Positions 49,686 through 62,131 of a stretch of 64,000 nt of DNA are shown piece after piece; positions within the stretch are counted from its first letter, which is position 1; each line of letters begins with the position of its first letter. Below the pieces are notes generated by a model. The model searched no databases, had not been told where the DNA came from, and saw only the letters and a program-made list of their open reading frames with translations. Source of the DNA: Nocardioides jensenii JCM 1364 = NBRC 14755 (GTDB taxonomy: Bacteria > Actinomycetota > Actinomycetes > Propionibacteriales > Nocardioidaceae); contig NZ_BCRJ01000006.1 of assembly GCF_001552535.1 (NCBI RefSeq), forward strand, positions 1 to 64,000, written 5' to 3'. The position numbers and the translations under genes were made by a program.

Positions 49686-50426
49686 ATGGCCACCGAGCTC
49701 ACCCAGGCGCAGCACCTCGAAGGACTTCGTGCCGCCCTGGTCGCCTTCACGCGGTACGCCGACCGTGCCGGCCTGCGTGCCTCGGTGCCGACGACTCCGG
49801 ACTGGACGGTGCGCAAGCTGGTCGTGCACCAGGGCATGGTGCACCGCTGGGCCGCGGCGTTGGTGCGGGGCGACCCGGCCGAGCCGGAACGCTACGAGCG
49901 CGAGGGCCAGGCTGCCATCGATCCGCTCGACTGGCTGCGTGACGGCGCCATCGAGGTGGTCACCGCGATCAGCGTCGCGGCCGACGACCTGGCCGCGCCG
50001 GTGTTCCTCAACGACGCCCCGCCCGCGCGCGAGTTCTGGGCCCGGCGGCAGTGCCACGAGACCACGATCCATGCGGTCGACGCGCTCTCGGCGGCGCTGG
50101 GCCGCTATCCGAAGGCCGCCGACACGTGGATCAGCGACGAGGTCGCGCTCGACGGGATCGACGAGTTGCTGACCGGTTTCCTGACTCGCGAGAGGTCACG
50201 CCTGCGCTCGCCGGATCCGATGACGATCGCCGTACGTCCCGAGGGGACGGAGCTCGGCTGGGAGGTCGCGGTGAGCACGAACCCCGCCGTCACCCGACGT
50301 ACGTCGCACCCGCACGGCGACGTCGAGCTGACCGGATCCCCGGTGTCGCTCTACTTGGCGTTGTGGAATCGTTCGGACGAGATCCCGGCGCCGGAGCTCT
50401 GGCAGGATGCGGCCGTCACCTGGTGA
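49686..50426 (+). CDS. Maleylpyruvate isomerase-type mycothiol-dependent protein
   Basis: A 246-residue protein with the MDMPI N-terminal helical-bundle domain: VPTTPDWTVRKLVVHQGMVH (metal His and mycothiol region), AARRQCHETTIHAVDALSAA (in full FWARRQCHETTIHAVD, two further His/Glu ligands) and a C-terminal sterol-carrier-like domain (VTRRTSHPHGDVELTGSPVS). The superfamily uses mycothiol for transferase or isomerase reactions. The substrate cannot be inferred from context. Confidence 0.85.
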   Translation: MATELTQAQHLEGLRAALVAFTRYADRAGLRASVPTTPDWTVRKLVVHQGMVHRWAAALVRGDPAEPERYEREGQAAIDPLDWLRDGAIEVVTAISVAADDLAAPVFLNDAPPAREFWARRQCHETTIHAVDALSAALGRYPKAADTWISDEVALDGIDELLTGFLTRERSRLRSPDPMTIAVRPEGTELGWEVAVSTNPAVTRRTSHPHGDVELTGSPVSLYLALWNRSDEIPAPELWQDAAVTW

Positions 50427-50462
50427 CGAGACCCAGCAGATCCTCGAAGATCGGGAGAATCC

Positions 50463-51260
50463 GTGGCCGACGGCACCATGTCAAGCAACCGCGACGCGTC
50501 GCTGGAGGCCCGGCGTCTCGCCCGGTGGGGCATGGACCAACCACCCATCCGGACCGCCGCCGAGGCGGCGGCATACGTGGACGACGTCGGGATCCTGCTG
50601 CTGTTCGGTGATGCGAAGGCGAGCTTCCCGTCATTGCGCGAGGTGGCGCGAGACGAGAACGCCGCCATGCTGCCGGCGGGTTGGGGGGAGGACCTGGAAC
50701 GGGTCTGGACGTGGAAGGACCAGTTCCCGGTGGAGGGCGCAGCCTGGTGCGGCCGATTCCTGATGGGGCGACAGTCCCTGCTGTCGCCGCGGATGCTGCA
50801 GTGCCTCTATCCCGGCGACGGCGCCGAGAGCGACTTCGAATCGGTGGAGCTCAGCGACACCGCAACCCGGGTGGCGCGCCACCTGCACGACCACGGCCCG
50901 ACATCGATGCGCACCCTGCGCTCGGTCCACGGCCTCGACTCGCGGGCGAGCCAGCGCATCCTCACCGAGCTCGGGCGCGCCCTGGTGGTGACCAACTTCG
51001 GCACCGCCCAGGATGGGCCGGGCTGGGCCAGCGGCGTCATCGAACTGACCACGCGCGCCTTCTCTCTGCAGGCCGGTCCTCCGTTGCCGGACAGGCAGAG
51101 GCTCGCCGCCACCCAGTTCGTCGACACGATGGTCGAGACGAACGCGCGCGAACTCGGCCGCGCCCTCAGGTGGTCGCGGGCCGACGCGGAGCGAACGCTG
51201 GATGAACTGATTGCTGCGCGGACTCTGCGCCAGATGAATTGCGGCACAACTCTCATGTAG
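50463..51260 (+). CDS. AlkZ-related winged-helix protein
   Basis: A 265-residue protein resembling AlkZ-related proteins: VDDVGILLLFGDAKASFPSL, WTWKDQFPVEGAAWCGRFLM and a winged-helix part (TATRVARHLHDHGPTSMRTL, ASQRILTELGRALVVTNFG), then a second helical segment. These relatives of HTH_42 DNA glycosylases often accompany natural-product clusters as DNA-repair or regulatory proteins. It starts at GTG with GGGAG 6 bases upstream. It lies 100 bp before the biosynthetic operon in the same direction, so it may be its regulator or a self-protection gene; this is inference. Confidence 0.65.
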   Translation: MADGTMSSNRDASLEARRLARWGMDQPPIRTAAEAAAYVDDVGILLLFGDAKASFPSLREVARDENAAMLPAGWGEDLERVWTWKDQFPVEGAAWCGRFLMGRQSLLSPRMLQCLYPGDGAESDFESVELSDTATRVARHLHDHGPTSMRTLRSVHGLDSRASQRILTELGRALVVTNFGTAQDGPGWASGVIELTTRAFSLQAGPPLPDRQRLAATQFVDTMVETNARELGRALRWSRADAERTLDELIAARTLRQMNCGTTLM

Positions 51261-51360
51261 CGACAAATTCTTGGGCGGGAACCATTGCGTCGCCCTGTGG
51301 GCGCACGCTAGCGTCCCCGTGCCGGGTCCATCGGGGGACCTGAGACTCGGGGAGAGGGTT

Positions 51361-52623
51361 ATGGCGTTTTCGGGCCGCCAGCATGTCGTGCTGATCGACC
51401 CTGTGCTCACGGGGGACGGCTTCCTTCGCGCCTGTCACCAGCGTGGGTTCGCCGTCACCGCGGTCTACACCCTGGGAGCCGAGGTCCTCGACGCCGTGGC
51501 ACGGGAGCGCCGCAACGGCACTCACGCGGTGGTGCATGCGAGCTCGGTCGCGGACATCCTTGCCCTGGTCGAACGCCCCGTTCACGCCGTCGTCGCCGCC
51601 ACCGAGCCGGGGGTCGCCCTTGCCGACGGCGTGGCGCATGCGCTGGGCCTTCCCGGCAACGACCCCGCCACGGCTCCGGCTCGACGCTACAAGGATGCGA
51701 TGCGCAACCACGCCCGCGCCGTGGGACTGCCGGTGCCGCGGTTCGAGGTCGTGCCGGGCGGATCCGAAGCCGCCCGGCCCGACGCGCTGTTCCTGGCCGC
51801 CCAGCGAATCGGGTTCCCGGCGATCATCAAACCGACCTCGGGTGCGGCCGCGCACGGTGTGCAGGTTCTGCGGAACGCGGACGACGCCCGTCGCCTGCTG
51901 GGTTCGCCGCAGAGCCGCGACATCTTCGGTCACCGGATCAGTGGCTGGGTCGTCGAGGAGTACCTGTCCGGCCGCGAGCTCGCCGTGAACTGCTTCAGTG
52001 ACGGGGTCGAGCACCACGTGCTCGACATCTGGGAGTACCAGCAGCCGGTGGAGGGGCCCTACGACCAGCCCTACTGGAACCTCATCCAGATCACCGCCGA
52101 GGACGCCGACTGGGCGGGCGTCGTACGAGCCGTGCAGCAGATCCTGACCGAGTTCGGGGTCTGCATCGGCCCCAGCCACACCGAGGTCAAGGTCACCGCC
52201 GACGGCGTCCGCCTGATCGAGGTCGGCGCGCGACTCCCGGGCGCCCGGATGACCGATCACTGGGCGCAGCACAGCGGGTTCGACGCGTACGACGAGACCG
52301 TGTCGGCCTTCCTCGACCCGGCCTCGCTCACCACGAGGGACAAGCTCCCGCACTTCGACGCCAGGCTCGGCATCTGCTGCCTGCGCAACGACGGCCTCGA
52401 GGGCCGGCTGGAGTCCCTGCGCGGTGCGGACGCGGTCGCCGGGATTCCCCAGGTGGATGCCCTCCACCTCAACTACCAGGTCGGCGACCGAGTCCCGGTC
52501 ACCACGGATCTGAACAGCTTGTTCGGCAAGGCGCTGGTCTCGGCCGACACGGTCGAGGACCTTCTACGGGTGCACGAGAACGTTCGAAAGACAATCGAAA
52601 TGGAGATCTCAACGCATGGTTAA
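51361..52623 (+). CDS. ATP-grasp ligase, first gene of the biosynthetic operon
   Basis: A 420-residue ATP-grasp enzyme of the amino-acid-ligase type (BacD/carnosine-synthase-like layout). Preatp-grasp domain: HVVLIDPVLTGDGFLRACHQ. ATP-binding: RYKDAMRNHARAVGLPVPRF, GFPAIIKPTSGAAAHGVQVL (Lys contacting phosphate) and GWVVEEYLSGRELAVNCFSD. Mg-binding Glu and Asn/Arg: HTEVKVTADGVRLIEVGARL, then PGARMTDHW. Such ligases activate a carboxylate as acyl phosphate and join it to an amine. Ends with an 8-bp overlap into the radical SAM gene. Substrates unknown. Confidence 0.85.
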   Translation: MAFSGRQHVVLIDPVLTGDGFLRACHQRGFAVTAVYTLGAEVLDAVARERRNGTHAVVHASSVADILALVERPVHAVVAATEPGVALADGVAHALGLPGNDPATAPARRYKDAMRNHARAVGLPVPRFEVVPGGSEAARPDALFLAAQRIGFPAIIKPTSGAAAHGVQVLRNADDARRLLGSPQSRDIFGHRISGWVVEEYLSGRELAVNCFSDGVEHHVLDIWEYQQPVEGPYDQPYWNLIQITAEDADWAGVVRAVQQILTEFGVCIGPSHTEVKVTADGVRLIEVGARLPGARMTDHWAQHSGFDAYDETVSAFLDPASLTTRDKLPHFDARLGICCLRNDGLEGRLESLRGADAVAGIPQVDALHLNYQVGDRVPVTTDLNSLFGKALVSADTVEDLLRVHENVRKTIEMEISTHG

Positions 52624-54070
52624 CCTCATCTCGGGAAAGAAGTCGTTCATCAAGTTCGACGAGCAGTTCCCGGTCTACAACTGGCTCTACCCGATGAAGG
52701 GTCAGGACCTGGACGTCATCACTCATCAGAAGCTGTTCGGGGCCGTGGACGTCAGCCGGGTGCGCAACCGTGCGCTCTACTTCCACATCCCCTTCTGCGA
52801 GACGATCTGCACGTTCTGCACCCTCAATCGTGGGCTCGGCGCGCCGGGCGACGAAGCCATCGAGCTCTACGTCCAGGCGTTGATCAAGGAGATCCGGATC
52901 AAGGCCGCCTACGAGTCGATCACGAGCCGTCCGATCACCGCGATCTTCTTCGGCGGTGGGACGCCGACCACTCTCACGGCCGGTCAGATCCGTCGCATCG
53001 GGGCTGCCATCCACGACAACTTCGACCTGTCGGCGCTGGAGGAGTTCACCTTCGAGATGGAGGTGAAGAGCATCGACGAGGAGAAGGTCGTCGCGATGCG
53101 CGACATCGGGGTCAACAAGGCGCGGTTCGGTCTGCAGACCTTCGATCCCGTCTACCGCGAGCTGTTCAACATCACCGCAACCCTCGATCAGACCTACGAG
53201 GCGGCCGAGCTGCTGAAGAGCTACTTCGACTACACCAGCTTCGACATCATCTACGGGATGCACGGTCAGACGATCGAGCAGCTCTCGACCGAGATCCAGC
53301 GGGCCGTGGACCTCGGCACCGAGACCATCGAGTTCTACCCGATCACCAACGTCGTCACGCAGGCCTCGCTGCACCACGGCTACGTGCGGCGCGACCTGCA
53401 GCCGTTGAGCTTCATGACCAAGATGGCCTACTCGGTGTATCTCAACGAGTACATCCGTGCCTGCGGATTCCAGCAGCACAACGGAAACGGCTTCTACCGG
53501 GTCCCGGAGGGTCAGGACTTCGCGTCGACCTTCGTCTCCCGCGACTACACGAACGTCTACAACAGCTTCTTCTGGGCGCACTACGACGACGACCTGATCG
53601 GCTTCGGCAACTCGGCCATCTCCCAGACCGGCGTCTACACGGTGATGAACGACGAGAACCGGGCGACCTACACCCGGTCGCTCCTGGACCACAACGACTT
53701 CAAGATCAACGTCACCGTCGCCGACGACATCCCCTACGAGAAGGGCATCGTCTTCCGGCTGCCCTACTTCGGGTGGCTGGAGAAGGGCCGCGTGGAGTGG
53801 GACAAGGTGCCGGCCGAGGTGATGACGAAGCTCGGTGACCTGATCGGTGAGGGGCTGGTCGTGGAGAAGGACACCGAGTACCAGATCACCGAGCTGGGCT
53901 GGCTCTGGTACGTGAACATGATGTATCACCTGTCGCCGGCGTCCGACCAACGGATCCTCGACGACTTCGTCGACCACAAGAGCAAGATCCGTGGCATCAC
54001 CGACGGCAACCGGGCGATGGACCTGCCGTTGCTCGACATCGGCCGCGTTCCCGCGGGGGTCAGTCGGTGA
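52616..54070 (+). CDS. HemW-like radical SAM enzyme
   Basis: A 484-residue radical SAM protein related to HemN/HemW coproporphyrinogen-oxidase-like enzymes. The cluster motif is Cys61-x3-Cys65-x2-Cys68 in FHIPFCETICTFCTLNRG; then AIFFGGGTPTTLT (SAM-binding GGGTP), FEMEVKSIDEEKVVAMRDIG and RFGLQTFDP, and a HemN-type C-terminal domain (LPYFGWLEKGRVEWDKVPAE, GLVVEKDTEYQITELGWLWY). The usual PYCDF around the last Cys is TFCTL, so it is not a housekeeping HemW. In other pathways HemW-like enzymes act as class C radical methylases or cyclases. It overlaps both neighbours and is clearly part of the operon. Confidence 0.88.
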   Translation: MVNLISGKKSFIKFDEQFPVYNWLYPMKGQDLDVITHQKLFGAVDVSRVRNRALYFHIPFCETICTFCTLNRGLGAPGDEAIELYVQALIKEIRIKAAYESITSRPITAIFFGGGTPTTLTAGQIRRIGAAIHDNFDLSALEEFTFEMEVKSIDEEKVVAMRDIGVNKARFGLQTFDPVYRELFNITATLDQTYEAAELLKSYFDYTSFDIIYGMHGQTIEQLSTEIQRAVDLGTETIEFYPITNVVTQASLHHGYVRRDLQPLSFMTKMAYSVYLNEYIRACGFQQHNGNGFYRVPEGQDFASTFVSRDYTNVYNSFFWAHYDDDLIGFGNSAISQTGVYTVMNDENRATYTRSLLDHNDFKINVTVADDIPYEKGIVFRLPYFGWLEKGRVEWDKVPAEVMTKLGDLIGEGLVVEKDTEYQITELGWLWYVNMMYHLSPASDQRILDDFVDHKSKIRGITDGNRAMDLPLLDIGRVPAGVSR

Positions 54071-55287
54071 ACGACTCGAGCGCTCCGATCACCGACCCGG
54101 CACACAAGCGTGCGGTTCGAATCCTCGTGGCCGGGAGCCTGCTGAACGCGATCGCGTTCTTCTCCGCCGCGCCCTTCCTGACCCTGTATCTCTCTGCCAA
54201 CAGCCACCTGAGCCTGCCGGTGATCGGTGCCGTGGTCGGCTCCGTCGCCCTGGTCGCCGCAGTCGGCGGAGTGGTCGGCGGCATCATCGTCGACCGCACG
54301 GGCGCCGTGCGCTGGATCGTGTTCGGTCTCGTGATCTACGCCGGGGTGTACGCCGGCCTGGCGATCGTCGACCAGACCTGGGTCATCGTCACCCTGATCG
54401 TGCTGATCGGCGTCGGGCGTCTCTTCGTGGAGCCCGCGACGAAGAAGCTGCTCTCGCTCGCCGCGGGTGAGGGCGGGGGGCTGTTCCGGGTCCGCTACAT
54501 CACGCTGTGTCTGGGCGCGATCGTCGGCCCGGCCATCGGTGGCCTGCTCTATCTGGCCGGCCCGGTCTATCTCTTCAGCCTGCCGTGCGTCCTGCTGCTC
54601 GGCTACGCCGCGCTGGTGCTCTCCCAGGCAGAGACCCTGAGCGCGTTGGAGGGTGAGCCCGGGACGGGTGACCTGGGCACCTTCCGGTTCGCGGAGGTGG
54701 CCCGGGACCGTCGTCTGCTCGCGGCCATCGGTGCCGGCCTGGTGACGTTCTTCGTCTTCTCCCAGATCGACTCGATCGTGCCGGTGTTCATCGACCGGGA
54801 GGAGGGAGAGTCCGCCGTCGGCTACTTCGCCGCTCTCCTGATCGCCAATGCGGTGCTCGCGATCGTGCTGCAGGCCCCCATCGAGTGGGCGAGCAAGCGC
54901 ATGTCACGCAGCGCCCTGGTGGTCACGGGATGTGTCGGGTTCGCCGTCGGCCTGCTCCTCTTCGCCGCGCTCCCGATCCACCCGGCGCTGCTGTACGCCG
55001 GCATCTTCTTCTGGACCGTGGGCGAGGCGATCCTGCTCCCCATGCCCGACATTGCGATCCACGAGCTCGCCGACGAGAGCCGGCGAGGGGCGTACTTCGG
55101 CCTGGGTGAGCTGCGCTATCTCGGGTTCTTCCTGGGGCCCATTACCGGCGGTGCCCTGCTGGGCAGCGGAGCGATGCTCTACTTCGGCGTGATGGCCGTG
55201 GCGATCTTCCTGAGCGTGCCCCTGCTCGCCAGGGCCGCGTCCTCGGGCCGGGTTCCGGCGGTGGCCGAAGCGGCGAGCGTCGCATGA
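54067..55287 (+). CDS. MFS transporter of the biosynthetic operon
   Basis: A 406-residue 12-helix major facilitator. N-terminal half: RILVAGSLLNAIAFFSAAPF, VVGSVALVAAVGGVVGGIIV followed by DRTGAVRW (the loop 2-3 signature DRxG). C-terminal half: ALVVTGCVGFAVGLLLFAAL and EAILLPMPDIAIHELADESR. It starts at GTG overlapping the radical SAM stop by 4 bp and its stop overlaps the second ATP-grasp gene by 4 bp. I infer export of the operon product or uptake of its precursor. Confidence 0.9.
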   Translation: MNDSSAPITDPAHKRAVRILVAGSLLNAIAFFSAAPFLTLYLSANSHLSLPVIGAVVGSVALVAAVGGVVGGIIVDRTGAVRWIVFGLVIYAGVYAGLAIVDQTWVIVTLIVLIGVGRLFVEPATKKLLSLAAGEGGGLFRVRYITLCLGAIVGPAIGGLLYLAGPVYLFSLPCVLLLGYAALVLSQAETLSALEGEPGTGDLGTFRFAEVARDRRLLAAIGAGLVTFFVFSQIDSIVPVFIDREEGESAVGYFAALLIANAVLAIVLQAPIEWASKRMSRSALVVTGCVGFAVGLLLFAALPIHPALLYAGIFFWTVGEAILLPMPDIAIHELADESRRGAYFGLGELRYLGFFLGPITGGALLGSGAMLYFGVMAVAIFLSVPLLARAASSGRVPAVAEAASVA

Positions 55288-56477
55288 TCATCGTCTGCTG
55301 CCGGGTGCCGGTGGAGCTGACACCCTTGGGGGACTGGCTCGGCGAGGTGGCCGATGACCTGGTGATCGTGACCAGTGCCGAGAGGGCCGCCGGCTACCAG
55401 GGCGCCGCCCGGGAAGTCGTGGCCGTCGAGGACTACAGCTCCACACCGGACGTGATCGAGGTCCTTCGTCACCTGTGTCGCCGCGAGAGTGTCACCGCGA
55501 TCGTGCACGTCACCGAGGAGGACATCCTCCGCGTGGCACAGGTGCGTGCCGAATTCGGCATCCCCGGCCTGGATGCCTCGGCAGCACTGGCGTTTCGCGA
55601 CAAGGCGACGATGAAGGCACAGGTCTCGGGCGTCACGGTTCCCGCACACCACACGCCGACCGACGCCGCGGATGGGGAACGGTTCGCCGAGCGGGTCGGT
55701 TGGCCGATCGTGGTCAAGCCTCGCTTCGGGTACGCGTCCACCGACGTACGGGTCGTCGCCGACGCCGTGGCGCTCCGCGACCAGTTGTCGGACCGTCCCT
55801 ACGACGACCTGCTCCTCGAGGAGTTCGTCCCGGGGGCCGTCTTCCACGTCGACGGGGTCATGGAGAGCGGTCAGGTGCTCTGGGCCTGCCCCTCGAAGTA
55901 CGTCGACACGCCGCTCGCCTACCTGGAAGCTCGTCCGTTGGGGAGTGTGCAGCTCGACGACGGGCCACTGGCCGAGAGGCTGGTGGAGTTCGCGGACACG
56001 GTGGCGGCCACGATGCCGAAGACGCCGTGGTCGATGTTCCACCTTGAGGTGATCGAGCACGCCGACACCAAGGAGCTCTACTTCTGCGAGGTTGCCGCGC
56101 GGCTCGGCGGGGGACACATCCCTCAGGCACTCACCCTTCGGACCGGTGTGAACCCGGCACGGGCCTGGTTGCGTCAACAGTCCGGTCTCGACCCCGAGGT
56201 CGAGGCCCTCGCCCTCGACGGGGACAGGTTCGGGTTCCTGCTGGTGCCACCGAAGTCCGGCAGGCTCCTGGGGATCGAGGAGCAACCACTTCCTGACTAC
56301 GTCTGCGAACACCACGTCGACGTCACGCTCGATCGGACGGCCTCCGCCGCCGCCTCGAGCATCGACACCGCACTGAGCTACATCGTCACCGGGCCGTCGG
56401 AGACGGTCGTCGAGCAACGCCTCGCCGTGTGCGCACAGCTGGCGACAACGACGCTTCATTGGGGGGAAGAACGTTGA
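55284..56477 (+). CDS. Second ATP-grasp ligase
   Basis: A 397-residue ATP-grasp enzyme distinct from the first. It has AALAFRDKATMKAQVSGVTV, GWPIVVKPRFGYASTDVRVV (ATP-binding Lys) and YDDLLLEEFVPGAVFHVDGV (adenine-binding hinge), then MFHLEVIEHADTKELYFCEV and AARLGGGHIPQAL, giving the metal-binding Glu and Gly-Gly loop of the carboxylate-amine ligases. Two different ligases in one operon point to two condensations or to one activation and one ligation. It overlaps MFS and SpeD-like genes by 4 bp at each end. Confidence 0.85.
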   Translation: MIIVCCRVPVELTPLGDWLGEVADDLVIVTSAERAAGYQGAAREVVAVEDYSSTPDVIEVLRHLCRRESVTAIVHVTEEDILRVAQVRAEFGIPGLDASAALAFRDKATMKAQVSGVTVPAHHTPTDAADGERFAERVGWPIVVKPRFGYASTDVRVVADAVALRDQLSDRPYDDLLLEEFVPGAVFHVDGVMESGQVLWACPSKYVDTPLAYLEARPLGSVQLDDGPLAERLVEFADTVAATMPKTPWSMFHLEVIEHADTKELYFCEVAARLGGGHIPQALTLRTGVNPARAWLRQQSGLDPEVEALALDGDRFGFLLVPPKSGRLLGIEEQPLPDYVCEHHVDVTLDRTASAAASSIDTALSYIVTGPSETVVEQRLAVCAQLATTTLHWGEER

Positions 56478-56917
56478 ACTACAGCTTCCTGGGCACGCAT
56501 GTGCTCGCCGACATCTACGACATCGACGACCTGACCGTGCGTGACAACGCTCTCGTGCTCGAGGCCCTGCGCAAGGGGATCCGCGCCAGCAACGCCACCC
56601 TGTGCGACGTCTCGGTGAAGGAGTTCGATCCCGCTGGAATGACGGCGATGTTCCTGCTCGCCGAGTCGCACGTGGCCGTGCACACCTATCCGGACGCGGG
56701 CTCGCTCTTCGTGGACGCCTTCACCTGCGGAACGACGTGCCAGCCGACGCGCATCATCGAGGAGTTGGTCGCCGTGCTCGGGCCGGTCAAGCATCGAATG
56801 AGTGTGCTCCAGCGCGGGTTGCCGGCGATGGCGGGTGGCTCCAGGCTGGCCACGCCCGTGGGCGCAGCGGCGGTCGACCTGGCCGGAGTCGCCTCCGATC
56901 GACCTCTCGTCTCGTGA
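56474..56917 (+). CDS. SpeD-like pyruvoyl-dependent decarboxylase
   Basis: A 147-residue homologue of prokaryotic S-adenosylmethionine decarboxylase. Self-cleavage occurs between Glu64 and Ser65 in LAESHVAVHTYPDAG, making the pyruvoyl cofactor. His70 and Cys85 (in VDAFTCG) occupy the positions of the proton donor and processing residues (His68, Cys83 in the model enzymes). The usual Trp after HT is Tyr72, which could alter substrate fit, and there is a C-terminal extension of about 20 residues. The TTG start has GGGGGGAAG upstream and overlaps the previous stop. No speE is nearby, so a role in ordinary spermidine synthesis is unlikely; it may decarboxylate SAM or another amino acid for the product. 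Confidence 0.87.
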   Translation: MNYSFLGTHVLADIYDIDDLTVRDNALVLEALRKGIRASNATLCDVSVKEFDPAGMTAMFLLAESHVAVHTYPDAGSLFVDAFTCGTTCQPTRIIEELVAVLGPVKHRMSVLQRGLPAMAGGSRLATPVGAAAVDLAGVASDRPLVS

Positions 56918-57621
56918 CCGCCCAGGTGCCCCTGCTCGAGACGCTCGAGCAGGAGGGCGGTGACCGACGGGGGATCACGGTCTCGGCGGCCGATGTCCCG
57001 CTGTCCCGCATCATCTCTGACCTGAGCGAGGTCGAGCGCTGGCTCAGCGACTACGTCGCCCAGCCCCACTCCGAGATCGGTCGCACCGGAGCCGTGTGCC
57101 CGTTCGTCGCGCCTTCGATCGACGCCGGCTCGATGATGATTCGGCTCGACTACGCGGTCACGGGACACCAGGTCGACGAGCTGGTCGCGTCGCTGATGGC
57201 TCACGTCAACGAGTTCGCGTCGGCCGCCGTACCGGAACGCAAGCGGCTGCTGCGATCGGTCCTGGTGGTGCTGCCGTGCCTGACCGGCTCGGGCCGGGCG
57301 AACCTCGATGCCACCTACTCCGTGCTGAAGGCCAGCGCCGTGAGACGGGGACTCATGGTCGGGCAGTTCCACGAGGACTGCGACCAGCGGGCGATCCGCA
57401 ACAGCGGCTTCCGGGTCTCCCGATCCCCGGTCCCGCTGTTGGCGGTGCGCTTCATGGCGCTGCACGACATCCTCTTCCTGGGAGAGGACCGGCGCATGTT
57501 CGAGGAGTACAGGCGTCGCTTCGGCAGGCACCATGACACCGGCCGGGTGCGTGACGCCTCGCTGCGGACGGCGTACGCCGCGGCAATGCACGCCCACCCT
57601 GACTCCGTGAGGCCGTCATGA
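56914..57621 (+). CDS. DUF6875-domain protein
   Basis: A 235-residue protein with the DUF6875 core: LSEVERWLSDYVAQPHSEIG, then RTGAVCPFVAPSIDAGSMMI, LLRSVLVVLPCLTGSGRANL, VGQFHEDCDQRAIRNSGFRV and SPVPLLAVRFMALHDILFLG. The domain is found in natural-product clusters, and I know no proven activity for it. Conserved Cys, His, Asp and Arg residues (CPF, QFHEDCD, RFMALHD) suggest an enzyme. GTG start overlapping the SpeD-like stop by 4 bp. Confidence 0.75.
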   Translation: MTAQVPLLETLEQEGGDRRGITVSAADVPLSRIISDLSEVERWLSDYVAQPHSEIGRTGAVCPFVAPSIDAGSMMIRLDYAVTGHQVDELVASLMAHVNEFASAAVPERKRLLRSVLVVLPCLTGSGRANLDATYSVLKASAVRRGLMVGQFHEDCDQRAIRNSGFRVSRSPVPLLAVRFMALHDILFLGEDRRMFEEYRRRFGRHHDTGRVRDASLRTAYAAAMHAHPDSVRPS

Positions 57622-58649
57622 CGACGCCACCGGCACCGGCCGAGTTGGACACCGCTCGCGGCGTGCGTGCGCTGCTGATCGGCAAGCTGCTCTCGCAGAG
57701 TCTCACGACCTTCGCCGAGCTCGGTGTGGCCGAGCTGCTGGACCGTCGGCCGATGACCGGCGACGAGCTCGCGGACGCCCTGGACGCCGATCCGCAGGTG
57801 CTGACCCAGTTGCTCCGCGCCCTGGTTCCCTTCGACGTGGTCTGCCACCACTCGGTCAGCGATCGGTTCTCCTTGGGCAGTCTCGGGGCGGCGTTGAGGC
57901 GTGGCGTGCCGGGATCGGCGTACGCGAGCGCGCTGCTGGCCGGGGGTCCGATGGGACGCGCGTGGTCCGCGCTGACCGAGTCGGTCCGAACCGGAAGGCC
58001 GGCCTTCGAGGTGGCCCACGGCGTCGATCTGTTCACGGCGCTGGACTCCGAGGCCGGCCTGAGACGACTGTTCCACGAGTCGCAGGAGCACGATCTCGAA
58101 CTGTCGATCGAGAGCCTGCTGCGGGTGATCGACGTCCCGGAGGAGGCGGTCATCATGGACGTCGGCGGAGGCGAGGGCGCGTTCCTGGAGAGGTTGACGA
58201 CGGCCACCGGCGCTGAGGGGATCCTGATGGACACGCCCGCCACCGTCGAGGGCGTTCCTGCCCGGCGGCGGGCGCACATGCGGGTCGTTCCGGGTGACTT
58301 CTTCGACTCCGTGCCGACCGGCGCGGACGTCGTCGTCCTGCGTGACATCCTCCACGACTGGGGTGACGAGGCGGCCGCGCGGATCCTGACGGTCTGCCGT
58401 GAGGCGATCGTCGCCGACGGGCGGATCCTCGTCGTCGAGCGCACTCTGAGCAGCGCCCCGGAGTCCACGGGCCCGCTGTCCGCGGACAGCCTGGCGCCGT
58501 TGATGGACCTCTACATGGTCACCGTCCTGGGCGGTCGCGAACGATCGGTCGAGGACTACCGAGCCCTCGCCACGAAGGCCGACCTGGTCGAAAGGGCGAT
58601 GGCGATCCTTCCTGACGGCACCATGGTCCTGGAGCTCGGTGTGTGCTGA
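57618..58649 (+). CDS. SAM-dependent O-methyltransferase
   Basis: A 343-residue small-molecule methyltransferase with the N-terminal winged-helix dimerisation domain (GKLLSQSLTTFAELGVAELL, VLTQLLRALVPFDVVCHHSV) and a class I SAM domain (AVIMDVGGGEGAFLERLTTA, RRRAHMRVVPGDFFDSVPTG, VVVLRDILHDWGDEAAARIL). The HDW motif supplies the catalytic His region of O-methyltransferases. It is the last gene of the overlapped operon. N- or C-methylation cannot be excluded from sequence. Confidence 0.88.
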   Translation: MTTPPAPAELDTARGVRALLIGKLLSQSLTTFAELGVAELLDRRPMTGDELADALDADPQVLTQLLRALVPFDVVCHHSVSDRFSLGSLGAALRRGVPGSAYASALLAGGPMGRAWSALTESVRTGRPAFEVAHGVDLFTALDSEAGLRRLFHESQEHDLELSIESLLRVIDVPEEAVIMDVGGGEGAFLERLTTATGAEGILMDTPATVEGVPARRRAHMRVVPGDFFDSVPTGADVVVLRDILHDWGDEAAARILTVCREAIVADGRILVVERTLSSAPESTGPLSADSLAPLMDLYMVTVLGGRERSVEDYRALATKADLVERAMAILPDGTMVLELGVC

Positions 58650-58752
58650 CGAGCCGTCGCCGACGTGCATGTCGGCGGTCTCTCGTCCGCTCGCACGCCC
58701 GAGGGGTTAATCGCCTTGACGAGGACGTGTTCCGTGCCGAACACTGCCTCTA

Positions 58753-58764
58753 TTCAATGTTGAA
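58753..58764. promoter_or_regulatory. Palindromic operator candidate before the ABC exporter
   Basis: TTCAATGTTGAA is a perfect 12-base palindrome 27 bases before the drrA-like start codon. The position suits a PadR or TetR repressor site. Confidence 0.5.
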
Positions 58765-58791
58765 CACACCACCTCAGGAGCGGGAGACCAG

Positions 58792-60673: not shown

Positions 60674-62131
60674 ATGGCGACCAGGACAGCGGGCACCGTC
60701 CCGGCCGGATCCACCGAGAAGTGGCGCGACAACAAGCGCTACCTGTGGCTGATCGGCCTTGTCGTGCCATCTCTCGCCTTCGTCGCGTTCGGCATGTATG
60801 CCCTGACCGGATGGGGCGTCTGGTTCTGGGTGGGCCCGATCGTGATCCTCGGCGTGGTCCCGGCCATCGACCTCGTCGCCGGTCTCGATCGCTCCAACCC
60901 GCCCGACGACGTGATCGAGGAGCTGGAGAAGGACAAGTACTACCGCTGGATCACCTTCCTCTTCCTTCCGATCCAGTACGCCGGCTTCGTCGGCGCCATG
61001 TGGCTGGTCAGCGGCGGCAACCCCCTCGGCCTGATCGACGAGCCGCTCGGCCTGGTCGACAAGATCGGCTTGGCCATCTCGATCGGCTGTATCGGCGGGA
61101 TCGGCATCAACACCGCGCACGAGCTCGGCCACAAGAAGGAGTCCAACGAGCGCTGGCTCTCCAAGATCGCGTTGGCCCAGAGCTTCTACGGTCACTTCTA
61201 CATCGAGCACAACCGCGGCCACCACGTGCGCGTGGCCACCCCCGAGGATCCCGCCAGCAGCCGTTTCGGTGAGAACTTCTACCAGTTCTGGCCGCGAACG
61301 GTCATCGGTTCGCTGAAGAGCTCGTGGAACCTGGAGAAGAAGCGCATCGCCCGCAAGAACAAGCACCCGTTCCGCCTGAGCAACGACGTGCTCAACGCTT
61401 GGTTGATGTCGTCAGTGCTGTTCGGCGCGATGATCGCGATCTTCGGCATCGGCATCGCTCCCTACCTGGTGATCCAGGCGATCGTCGGCTTCTCGCTGCT
61501 CGAGGTGGTCAACTTCATGGAGCACTACGGCATGCTGCGCCAGAAGGTCGGCGCGGGTGAGCGTCAGCGCTACGAACGGGTGCTGCCCAGCCACAGCTGG
61601 AACTCCAACAACATCGCCACCAACGTGCTGCTCTACCACCTGCAGCGGCACAGCGACCACCACGCGAACCCGACCCGGCGCTACCAGACGCTGCGCGACT
61701 TCGAGGAGTCGCCGGTGCTGCCCACCGGCTATGCCGGGATGATCGTGCTGGCCCTGTTCCCGCCGGTCTGGCGTCGGGTGATGGACCCCCGGGTGATCGC
61801 CCACTTCGACGGCGACCTGACCCTGGCGAACCTCCAACCGGGCAAGGAGGAGAAGCTGCTCGCCAAGTACGGCGTCGCGATGAGCGAGGCCAAGGCCGAG
61901 CGCCGGGCCCGTGACGACGAGGCCGCTGCCCTGGCCGTCAGCGTCGGCAACGAGGTGCTCGCTGCGCGATGCCCCGGCTGTGACTACGTGTACGACGTGG
62001 ACGCGGGTGACGAGCACGAGGGCTTCGCTGCCGGTACGGCGTGGGCCGACATCCCCGACTCCTGGTGCTGCCCCGACTGTGGTGTGCGCGAGAAGGTCGA
62101 CTTCGTTCCGATCGACAAGGCGGTGGCGTGA
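60674..62131 (+). CDS. alkB: Alkane 1-monooxygenase fused to rubredoxin
   Basis: A 485-residue fusion. Residues 20-400 are the membrane di-iron alkane hydroxylase with its three His boxes: HELGHK (149-154), EHNRGHH (178-184) and LQRHSDHH (323-330), plus NYIEHYGL-type HYG motif (FMEHYGML). The C-terminal 55 residues form a rubredoxin domain with Cys433, Cys436, Cys466 and Cys469 (CPGC and CPDC), which delivers electrons. Such fusions hydroxylate medium- to long-chain n-alkanes in Nocardioides, Gordonia and Dietzia. GAGGAGG lies before the ATG. Confidence 0.96.
   Translation: MATRTAGTVPAGSTEKWRDNKRYLWLIGLVVPSLAFVAFGMYALTGWGVWFWVGPIVILGVVPAIDLVAGLDRSNPPDDVIEELEKDKYYRWITFLFLPIQYAGFVGAMWLVSGGNPLGLIDEPLGLVDKIGLAISIGCIGGIGINTAHELGHKKESNERWLSKIALAQSFYGHFYIEHNRGHHVRVATPEDPASSRFGENFYQFWPRTVIGSLKSSWNLEKKRIARKNKHPFRLSNDVLNAWLMSSVLFGAMIAIFGIGIAPYLVIQAIVGFSLLEVVNFMEHYGMLRQKVGAGERQRYERVLPSHSWNSNNIATNVLLYHLQRHSDHHANPTRRYQTLRDFEESPVLPTGYAGMIVLALFPPVWRRVMDPRVIAHFDGDLTLANLQPGKEEKLLAKYGVAMSEAKAERRARDDEAAALAVSVGNEVLAARCPGCDYVYDVDAGDEHEGFAAGTAWADIPDSWCCPDCGVREKVDFVPIDKAVA

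Follow-up and report, generated by a model that had tools for sequence, protein, structure and literature searches.

In this article, I describe a seven-gene operon, preceded by a putative relative of the DNA glycosylase AlkZ, in a stretch of DNA from Nocardioides jensenii JCM 1364 = NBRC 14755 (contig NZ_BCRJ01000006.1, positions 1 to 64,000; these 64,000 nucleotides as a whole are called the window). The operon belongs to a cluster family that is real, mobile and biosynthetic, and apparently new. The reading that I tentatively favor, with a probability of roughly 45%, is that the pathway runs through decarboxylated S-adenosylmethionine (dcAdoMet), which a SpeD-type decarboxylase would make and a radical S-adenosylmethionine (SAM, or AdoMet) enzyme would use, with ligases, tailoring enzymes, an exporter and a protective protein completing the route. 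The observations on which this argument is built are the anatomy of the operon, the co-conservation of its genes, its insertion relative to a congener, the catalytic residues, the linkage of genes recycling methylthioadenosine (MTA) and a change in the pocket for the second SAM. Since dcAdoMet is known mainly from polyamine synthesis, its use as a radical SAM co-substrate would, if true, turn it into a radical building block; and even without that step this is a small cluster family lacking nonribosomal peptide synthetases (NRPS) and polyketide synthases (PKS), easily overlooked by genome miners, that spans several actinobacterial genera and comes with plasmid relatives of the radical SAM gene, genes for recycling the by-product in two genomes and a candidate protection gene.

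The operon, its insertion and its relatives

The seven genes lie on the plus strand at 51361-58649, and all six of their junctions overlap, by 8, 4, 4, 4, 4 and 4 bp in the list of open reading frames (ORFs):

50463-51260, plus strand: AlkZ-related gene, within the insert, possible self-protection gene (PF24741, 5.1e-20)
51361 (ATG)-52623, plus strand: gene A, ATP-grasp enzyme of the L-amino-acid-ligase type with a LAL_C2 domain (PF13535, 4.8e-13; LAL_C2, PF18603, 3.1e-9)
52616-54070, plus strand: gene B, radical SAM enzyme of the HemN superfamily, central to the cluster (PF04055, 3e-19)
54067-55287, plus strand: gene C, major facilitator superfamily (MFS) exporter (PF07690, 8e-28)
55284-56477, plus strand: gene D, second ATP-grasp ligase (match to the L-amino acid ligase structure 4wd3, 3.7e-17)
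56474 (TTG)-56917, plus strand: gene E, SpeD, pyruvoyl AdoMet decarboxylase type (TIGR03330, 100.1 bits)
56914 (GTG)-57621, plus strand: gene F, DUF6875 protein, putative tailoring (PF21780, 6.1e-49; 166.9 bits against a gathering threshold of 24.5)
57618-58649, plus strand: gene G, SAM-dependent O-methyltransferase, putative tailoring (PF00891, 1.2e-38)
50424-58790, no strand: segment inserted relative to congener G003 (blastn breakpoints and flank synteny)

Coordinates, strand and overlap lengths agree with an earlier, sequence-only reading of this DNA, and its proposal of a single operon-like unit for a small-molecule pathway is supported, with no NRPS or PKS among the cluster genes. Scans with Pfam and NCBIfam also agree with the gene types that it named, with refinements for the radical SAM enzyme and gene D, and its span holds for the seven genes while missing the AlkZ-related gene at 50463-51260 in the same insert. 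The best solved structure for gene A is the L-amino acid ligase 30vh (1.6e-21); gene D matches the Pfam ATP-grasp model only weakly (22.2 bits versus a cut-off of 23.2) and lies under every Pfam cut-off, and neither gene A nor gene D reaches a ligase cut-off among the NCBIfam rows listed. Gene G matches the solved structures of CalO6 (1.3e-38) and MmcR (6.2e-38). A route through a ribosomally synthesized and post-translationally modified peptide (RiPP) or an amino-group carrier was rejected for the window, as no precursor was recognized in the operon, to which this examination was confined, and the overlapping of the seven genes leaves no gap between them for a precursor gene.

The insertion was delimited by comparing regions from six congeners, with nucleotide breakpoints taken from blastn. 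Similarity to G003 ends at window position 50423 (12270 of the G003 stretch L065) and restarts at 58791 (L065 13033), hence the operon was gained or lost together with the AlkZ-related gene, as a single 8.4 kb block, and the empty site between L065 12270 and 13033 holds an ORF of about 189 aa. The flanks adjoin in G003, in the order of a PadR-like gene (80%; named by eye), MDMPI (76%) and then an ABC transporter (93%); G009 likewise has the PadR-like gene close to the ABC transporter, though MDMPI is missing there, and these flanks are not kept in the other four of the six congeners. MDMPI (mycothiol-transferase-like, 49686-50426) had been a candidate cluster member on account of a "DinB family" gene adjoining the Cytobacillus radical SAM gene; it was rejected and is native to the window genome, because G003 carries it at the empty site.

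A search for the radical SAM gene at E<=1e-70 matched a single one of the 341 genomes in the window's family, that of the window itself, and 2 of 394 genomes in a class sample: again that of the window, and one whose contig coordinates coincide with those of G171 and which is probably that genome. A contig search yielded four loci with radical SAM identities of 64-75%, and in the Actinomadura pelletieri family 8 of 341 genomes matched at the same threshold, namely L013-L016, L030-L032 and G350 (L033), whose radical SAM relative (L033:9168-10592; 38% identity) has no cluster gene beside it. Furthermore, a search of 72,556 plasmid records at E<=1e-60 to the Glaesserella protein returned six records representing five distinct loci in five other genera. 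The loci are:

L013: Streptosporangiaceae metagenome-assembled genome, cluster locus
L014: Actinomadura bangladeshensis, cluster locus
L015: Actinomadura pelletieri (genome G060; MTA-gene stretch L076), cluster locus
L016: Planotetraspora thailandica, cluster locus
L030 (G171), L031 (G173) and L032 (G204): cluster loci in the A. pelletieri family
Klebsiella pneumoniae conjugative plasmid (L017:6141-11143): radical SAM, P450 and MFS genes, interrupted by insertion sequences; no SpeD recognized
Glaesserella pD74: SpeD, radical SAM, P450 and MFS genes
Xenorhabdus plasmid (L019:8487-13789): SpeD (TIGR03330), radical SAM gene, transporter-like gene (by eye) and a gene annotated as ornithine decarboxylase SpeF
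Alicyclobacillus plasmid: radical SAM and MFS genes; no SpeD recognized beside them
Cytobacillus plasmid: radical SAM and MFS genes, and a gene annotated "DinB family" adjoining the radical SAM gene; no SpeD recognized beside them

Gene content of the eight actinobacterial cluster loci (the window, L013-L016 and L030-L032) was determined by tblastn, and ATP-grasp A, the radical SAM enzyme, the MFS exporter, ATP-grasp D and SpeD are each present in 8/8, with the AlkZ-related gene in all except L032. This recurrence of the core in seven other genomes is more than chance and bears out the conserved gene set that the sequence-only reading had implied. The co-occurrence of DUF6875, SpeD and the radical SAM gene, which that reading had proposed to check, held in part: SpeD accompanies the radical SAM gene in all eight loci and on two of the plasmids, those of Glaesserella and Xenorhabdus, but none was recognized next to the relatives in Klebsiella, Alicyclobacillus and Cytobacillus, and DUF6875 has no tblastn match in the other seven loci, so that of the eight only the window carries it. 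Around the core, a third ATP-grasp gene occurs in six loci (neither in the window nor in L032), a heme-type oxygenase with an O-methyltransferase in four (the window, L016, L030 and L031), Amidohydro_3 in four (L016 and L030-L032) and a PmbA/TldD pair in three (L013-L015), where the pair makes a RiPP or amino-group-carrier route conceivable.

A proposed role for decarboxylated SAM, and the altered pocket

The SpeD protein scores 100.1 bits against TIGR03330, above the cut-off of 75.65, and E64-S65, H70 and C85 are invariant in nine aligned sequences (the L031 SpeD was left out); the counterparts of S65, H70 and C85 in Thermotoga maritima SpeD, S63, H68 and C83, are the processing Ser, His and Cys in the text available from PMC10407285. 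In none of the eight cluster genomes, the window genome G000 among them, does PF02675 match anything besides the cluster SpeD (E<=1e-5), and G350 has no PF02675 match genome-wide. The family score and the catalytic residues of SpeD, together with its genome context, indicate that it would make dcAdoMet. The sequence-only reading had instead proposed a decarboxylated dipeptide, formed by decarboxylation of the product; this gives way to the scoring of SpeD as an AdoMet decarboxylase and to the MTA-salvage genes beside two clusters, which argue for dcAdoMet as an intermediate.

These salvage genes are MtnC, ARD, MtnB and MtnA in G204, within the same gene run as the cluster (L032), and an overlapping set of an MtnA-APRT fusion, MtnB, ARD (named by Pfam, not by NCBIfam), MtnC and MTA phosphorylase in G060 (A. 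pelletieri, L076:7817-12147), which ends 2.7 kb from the AlkZ-related gene with one aminopeptidase N gene between. ARD is found in 45 of 341 family genomes, and among the eight cluster genomes G204 has two copies, one of them in the cluster, G060 has a single, cluster-linked copy and the other six have none. The strongest sign that the pathway may release MTA is this linkage, which at two of eight loci is suggestive and short of proof.

Gene B is 65-76% identical to four cluster homologues, and the cysteines of its CX3CX2C motif (C61, C65 and C68) are invariant in 10 rows. Its best NCBIfam model is HutW/ChuW (TIGR04107; 2.2e-46, 158.6 bits, short of the cut-off of 400), HemW matches at 1.7e-31, and its sole solved-structure matches at E<=0.001 are HemN (1olt, 1.3e-24) and NocN (9p2u, 2.5e-21). 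It sits in a separate clade of the HemN superfamily, so that the label "HemW-like", used in the sequence-only reading, does not fit. In the sections available of a preprint on NocN (PMC12871812), Tyr34 stacks on the second SAM (SAM-II, modelled as SAH), and Tyr96, Arg153, Asp196 and Ser225 contact its methionine part, the Arg153 contact being stated for NocN and not as a family rule, and Arg171 binds the first SAM (SAM-I). Residues were mapped from NocN through its structure-match alignment with gene B and compared in a MAFFT alignment of 28 rows, comprising 14 family members and 14 controls (11 HemW-like, two HutW and one HemN; one Halomonas HemN control, L075, was not included). Tyr55 of gene B aligns with Tyr34 of NocN, so the stacking tyrosine is kept, and the equivalents of Arg153 and Arg171 are Lys168 and Ile. 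Position 168 is Arg in all 14 controls, in Cytobacillus and in G350, whereas eight of the remaining 12 rows have Lys there and four have His; these 12 carry Arg at position 170, and the 16 rows with Arg168 carry Ser. These 12 form one clade (95/96) inside the 14-row family (99/98), which is itself separate within the HemN superfamily, and 10 of them have an intact SpeD adjoining; no SpeD was seen beside the two Arg168 outgroup relatives, Cytobacillus and G350. A Glu or Asp at position 239 was also considered as a sign of dcAdoMet use and rejected, as HutW, Cytobacillus and G350 have Asp there too. The AlphaFold model of the radical SAM enzyme is poor (mean pLDDT 46.1).

Putative tailoring, possible protection and the competing explanations

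The literature describes DUF6875 proteins as tryptophan-oxidizing heme proteins, and in the zigralone (zig) cluster deletion of zigH or zigI, that is, of the DUF6875 or the methyltransferase gene, gives the same demethoxylated product (PMC13307353, from the text available). Three loci (L016, L030 and L031) have a TDO-like protein and an O-methyltransferase in the same place (PF03301, scanned in L016; the L030 and L031 proteins are 44-46% identical to that of L016). Judged from gene content, DUF6875 and the O-methyltransferase are thus a replaceable tailoring pair, a point that the sequence-only reading overlooked, and the replacement supports a putative aromatic hydroxylation and methylation on a tryptophan-like unit, with an indole-type ring as the presumed substrate.

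The AlkZ-related protein scores 72.3 bits against PF24741 (gathering threshold 26.5), and 12 of 12 aligned members match this family, the Pfam name of which suggests AlkZ kinship. In the A. pelletieri family, PF24741 occurs in 11 of 341 genomes, in 6/7 with the cluster versus 5/334 others (Fisher p 1.5e-9, or 6.0e-9 with G350 counted as a cluster genome; the genomes are non-independent and four were known beforehand to carry both). G204 has no PF24741 match in its genome, no match to the AlkZ-related protein was obtained in 36/36 congeners searched, and none was found on plasmids in the plasmid search. AlkZ glycosylases are self-resistance proteins against DNA alkylators, with (Q/H)-aliphatic-(Q/D) as the AlkZ/YcaQ catalytic motif, in the portion available of PMC9040887. 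By eye, this motif was not seen in the 12 rows, which have one invariant Gln followed by Ser or Thr. The protein was rejected as an established glycosylase on this ground and for want of a YcaQ match or an AlkZ-type structure, and its AlphaFold model is poor (mean pLDDT 50.8). Protection of the producer against a genotoxin is thus a working hypothesis, and a role as regulator is possible.

Taken together, SpeD is predicted to convert SAM to dcAdoMet, and the radical SAM enzyme would use ordinary SAM as the radical initiator and hold dcAdoMet in the place of the second SAM, forming a bond to the substrate, after which MTA would leave and be recycled. The two ATP-grasp ligases, by analogy with their family, would form amide bonds between amino-acid-like units, DUF6875 would hydroxylate an aromatic ring, probably of the tryptophan or indole type, and the O-methyltransferase would cap it; these last two assignments draw on the reported DUF6875-methyltransferase pair and on its replacement by a TDO-like protein with an O-methyltransferase. 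The MFS protein would export the product, and the AlkZ-related protein would shield the producer; this is the weakest step, and one in keeping with a DNA-reactive product. The use of dcAdoMet as a radical co-substrate, the indole-type substrate and a genotoxic product are inferred. The fullest version, in which the radical SAM enzyme of a transferable cluster takes dcAdoMet from a dedicated SpeD as its second SAM and installs an aminopropyl-derived unit by radical chemistry, as an open chain or a strained ring, with release of MTA to give a DNA-reactive methoxylated aromatic amide, is a rather doubtful extension. No radical SAM enzyme is known to use dcAdoMet, and none turned up among the titles and abstracts of the open-access papers listed in a literature search.

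Several observations weigh against the dcAdoMet pathway. All 12 changed members fall on one branch, so the pocket change is one evolutionary event and counts as a single coincidence; the tree tool flags Cytobacillus, G350 and Alicyclobacillus as long branches, and the placement of the first two is unsure. No SpeD was recognized beside the Klebsiella and Alicyclobacillus genes, though both carry His168, and the replacement of the Arg171 equivalent by Ile, Val or Leu in all 14/14 family members is left unexplained by the dcAdoMet idea. The MTA genes are linked in just 2/8 loci, and five of the eight genomes (G058, G059, G060, G171 and G173) have a strong spermidine-synthase match elsewhere, so that their single SpeD could serve polyamines, also releasing MTA. 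The AlkZ-related gene is also present apart from such clusters, with stand-alone copies in five family genomes, and 5/21 genomes of the window's order outside its genus have one; its protein aligns to E. coli YcaQ with an hhalign probability of 3% (a weak test with a single YcaQ sequence), and no AlkZ/YcaQ chain is among its solved-structure matches up to E=1. Polar aminopropyl transfer is possible as well.

The likeliest of the rivals, though still unlikely, is that gene B performs class C chemistry with two normal SAM molecules, methylating or cyclopropanating as C10P, NosN and TbtI do, and that the dcAdoMet from SpeD is used elsewhere, for aminopropylation, for spermidine or as an amine that an ATP-grasp ligase acylates before MTA is lost. 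HemN and NocN as the sole structure matches of gene B, the kept stacking tyrosine (Tyr55), the Asp at position 239 common to gene B and HutW and the strong spermidine-synthase match in 5/8 genomes all speak for it. However, the SAM-II arginine is lost in all 12 clade members, no aminopropyltransferase family was recognized among the window genes in the Pfam and NCBIfam scans, and the spermidine-synthase matches (PF01564) are weak and partial in G000 (8.7e-10 and 9.1e-6), weak in G204 (1.6e-9) and absent in G061.

An improbable alternative makes SpeD a neofunctionalized arginine or ornithine decarboxylase whose agmatine or putrescine the ATP-grasp ligases would couple. The nearest match of gene D is the L-amino acid ligase 4wd3, which I take to be the arginine-selective RizA, and the Xenorhabdus gene run includes the gene annotated as ornithine decarboxylase SpeF. 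SpeD variants acting on arginine or ornithine are also widespread, according to the part of PMC10407285 available. Set against this are the TIGR03330 score above cut-off, which would point to AdoMet, and the MTA salvage linked to two clusters, to which this alternative gives no role. The sequence-only model, in which a SpeD-like enzyme acts on an already assembled, peptide-like intermediate and leaves a methylated decarboxy-dipeptide, is compatible with the gene content, yet the family score of SpeD and the plasmids of Glaesserella and Xenorhabdus, which pair SpeD with the radical SAM gene and have no ATP-grasp annotated in the stretches fetched, make it highly improbable.

Known systems and neighboring observations

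The dcAdoMet pathway favored here can be set beside several described systems. The CC-1065/yatakemycin family employs C10P with the C10Q cyclopropanase, and the yatakemycin cluster includes the DNA glycosylase YtkR2 for self-resistance (PMC8626424, in the text available), recalling the putative protection gene; however, ATP-grasp ligases, SpeD, MTA salvage in two relatives and the altered SAM-II pocket are features of the present family, and its protein is AlkZ-related and not, like YtkR2, AlkD-related. The class C methylases NocN/NosN and TbtI share with gene B the HemN superfamily, the CX3CX2C motif and the stacking tyrosine, but unlike NocN, gene B has Lys and Ile for Arg153 and Arg171 and is linked to SpeD. 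The heme-degrading radical SAM methyltransferases HutW/ChuW provide the closest NCBIfam model and share Asp239, although gene B reaches 158.6 bits against their cut-off of 400 and lies in a separate clade. The zig cluster resembles the operon in DUF6875 and a methyltransferase, but it is a diterpenoid pathway with P450s, and SpeD, radical SAM and ATP-grasp genes are not in the gene list given in the available text of PMC13307353. Spermidine synthesis and microcin C also use a SAM-derived aminopropyl group with MTA as the by-product, the order of decarboxylation and aminopropyl transfer in microcin C being left open in the part available of PMC10491745; in contrast, no spermidine synthase or methyltransferase-fold aminopropyl transferase was recognized among the core genes here. 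The L-amino acid ligases BL00235, 4wd3 and DdaF are the ATP-grasp matches of genes A and D, and two or three such enzymes are present per cluster. By title and abstract among the open-access papers listed, no description of such a SpeD/radical SAM/ATP-grasp cluster was found, which supports the suggestion in the sequence-only reading that the system is undescribed.

Further searches covered 94 viral stretches, none of which was confirmed, and phages, with 35 records all below 60% identity, of which 20 were listed, those bearing an annotation being of the HemN type; in E. coli genomes no record covers 80% of the query, and the 20 rows listed cover 12%, its IS1 part. A 132-aa ORF on the Alicyclobacillus plasmid was rejected as a decayed SpeD, for which hhalign gave no support. 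Two proteins encoded beside clusters, one of 395 aa (L050:10237-11424; also in L016) and one of 362 aa (L013:15664-16752), have no Pfam or NCBIfam match. In L032, a proline-dehydrogenase-like gene separates ATP-grasp A from the radical SAM gene (L032:8254-9051), and on the Xenorhabdus plasmid a gene annotated as DNA polymerase IV is found upstream on the opposite strand. The stand-alone AlkZ-related gene of L047 adjoins a sugar-diacid regulator, glycerate kinase and GntP permease, and its counterparts in L045 and L046 have neighbors of matching lengths. Finally, window positions 60674-62131 encode a long protein resembling, by eye, an alkane monooxygenase with a rubredoxin-like tail, which has a strong match in 22/24 congeners.

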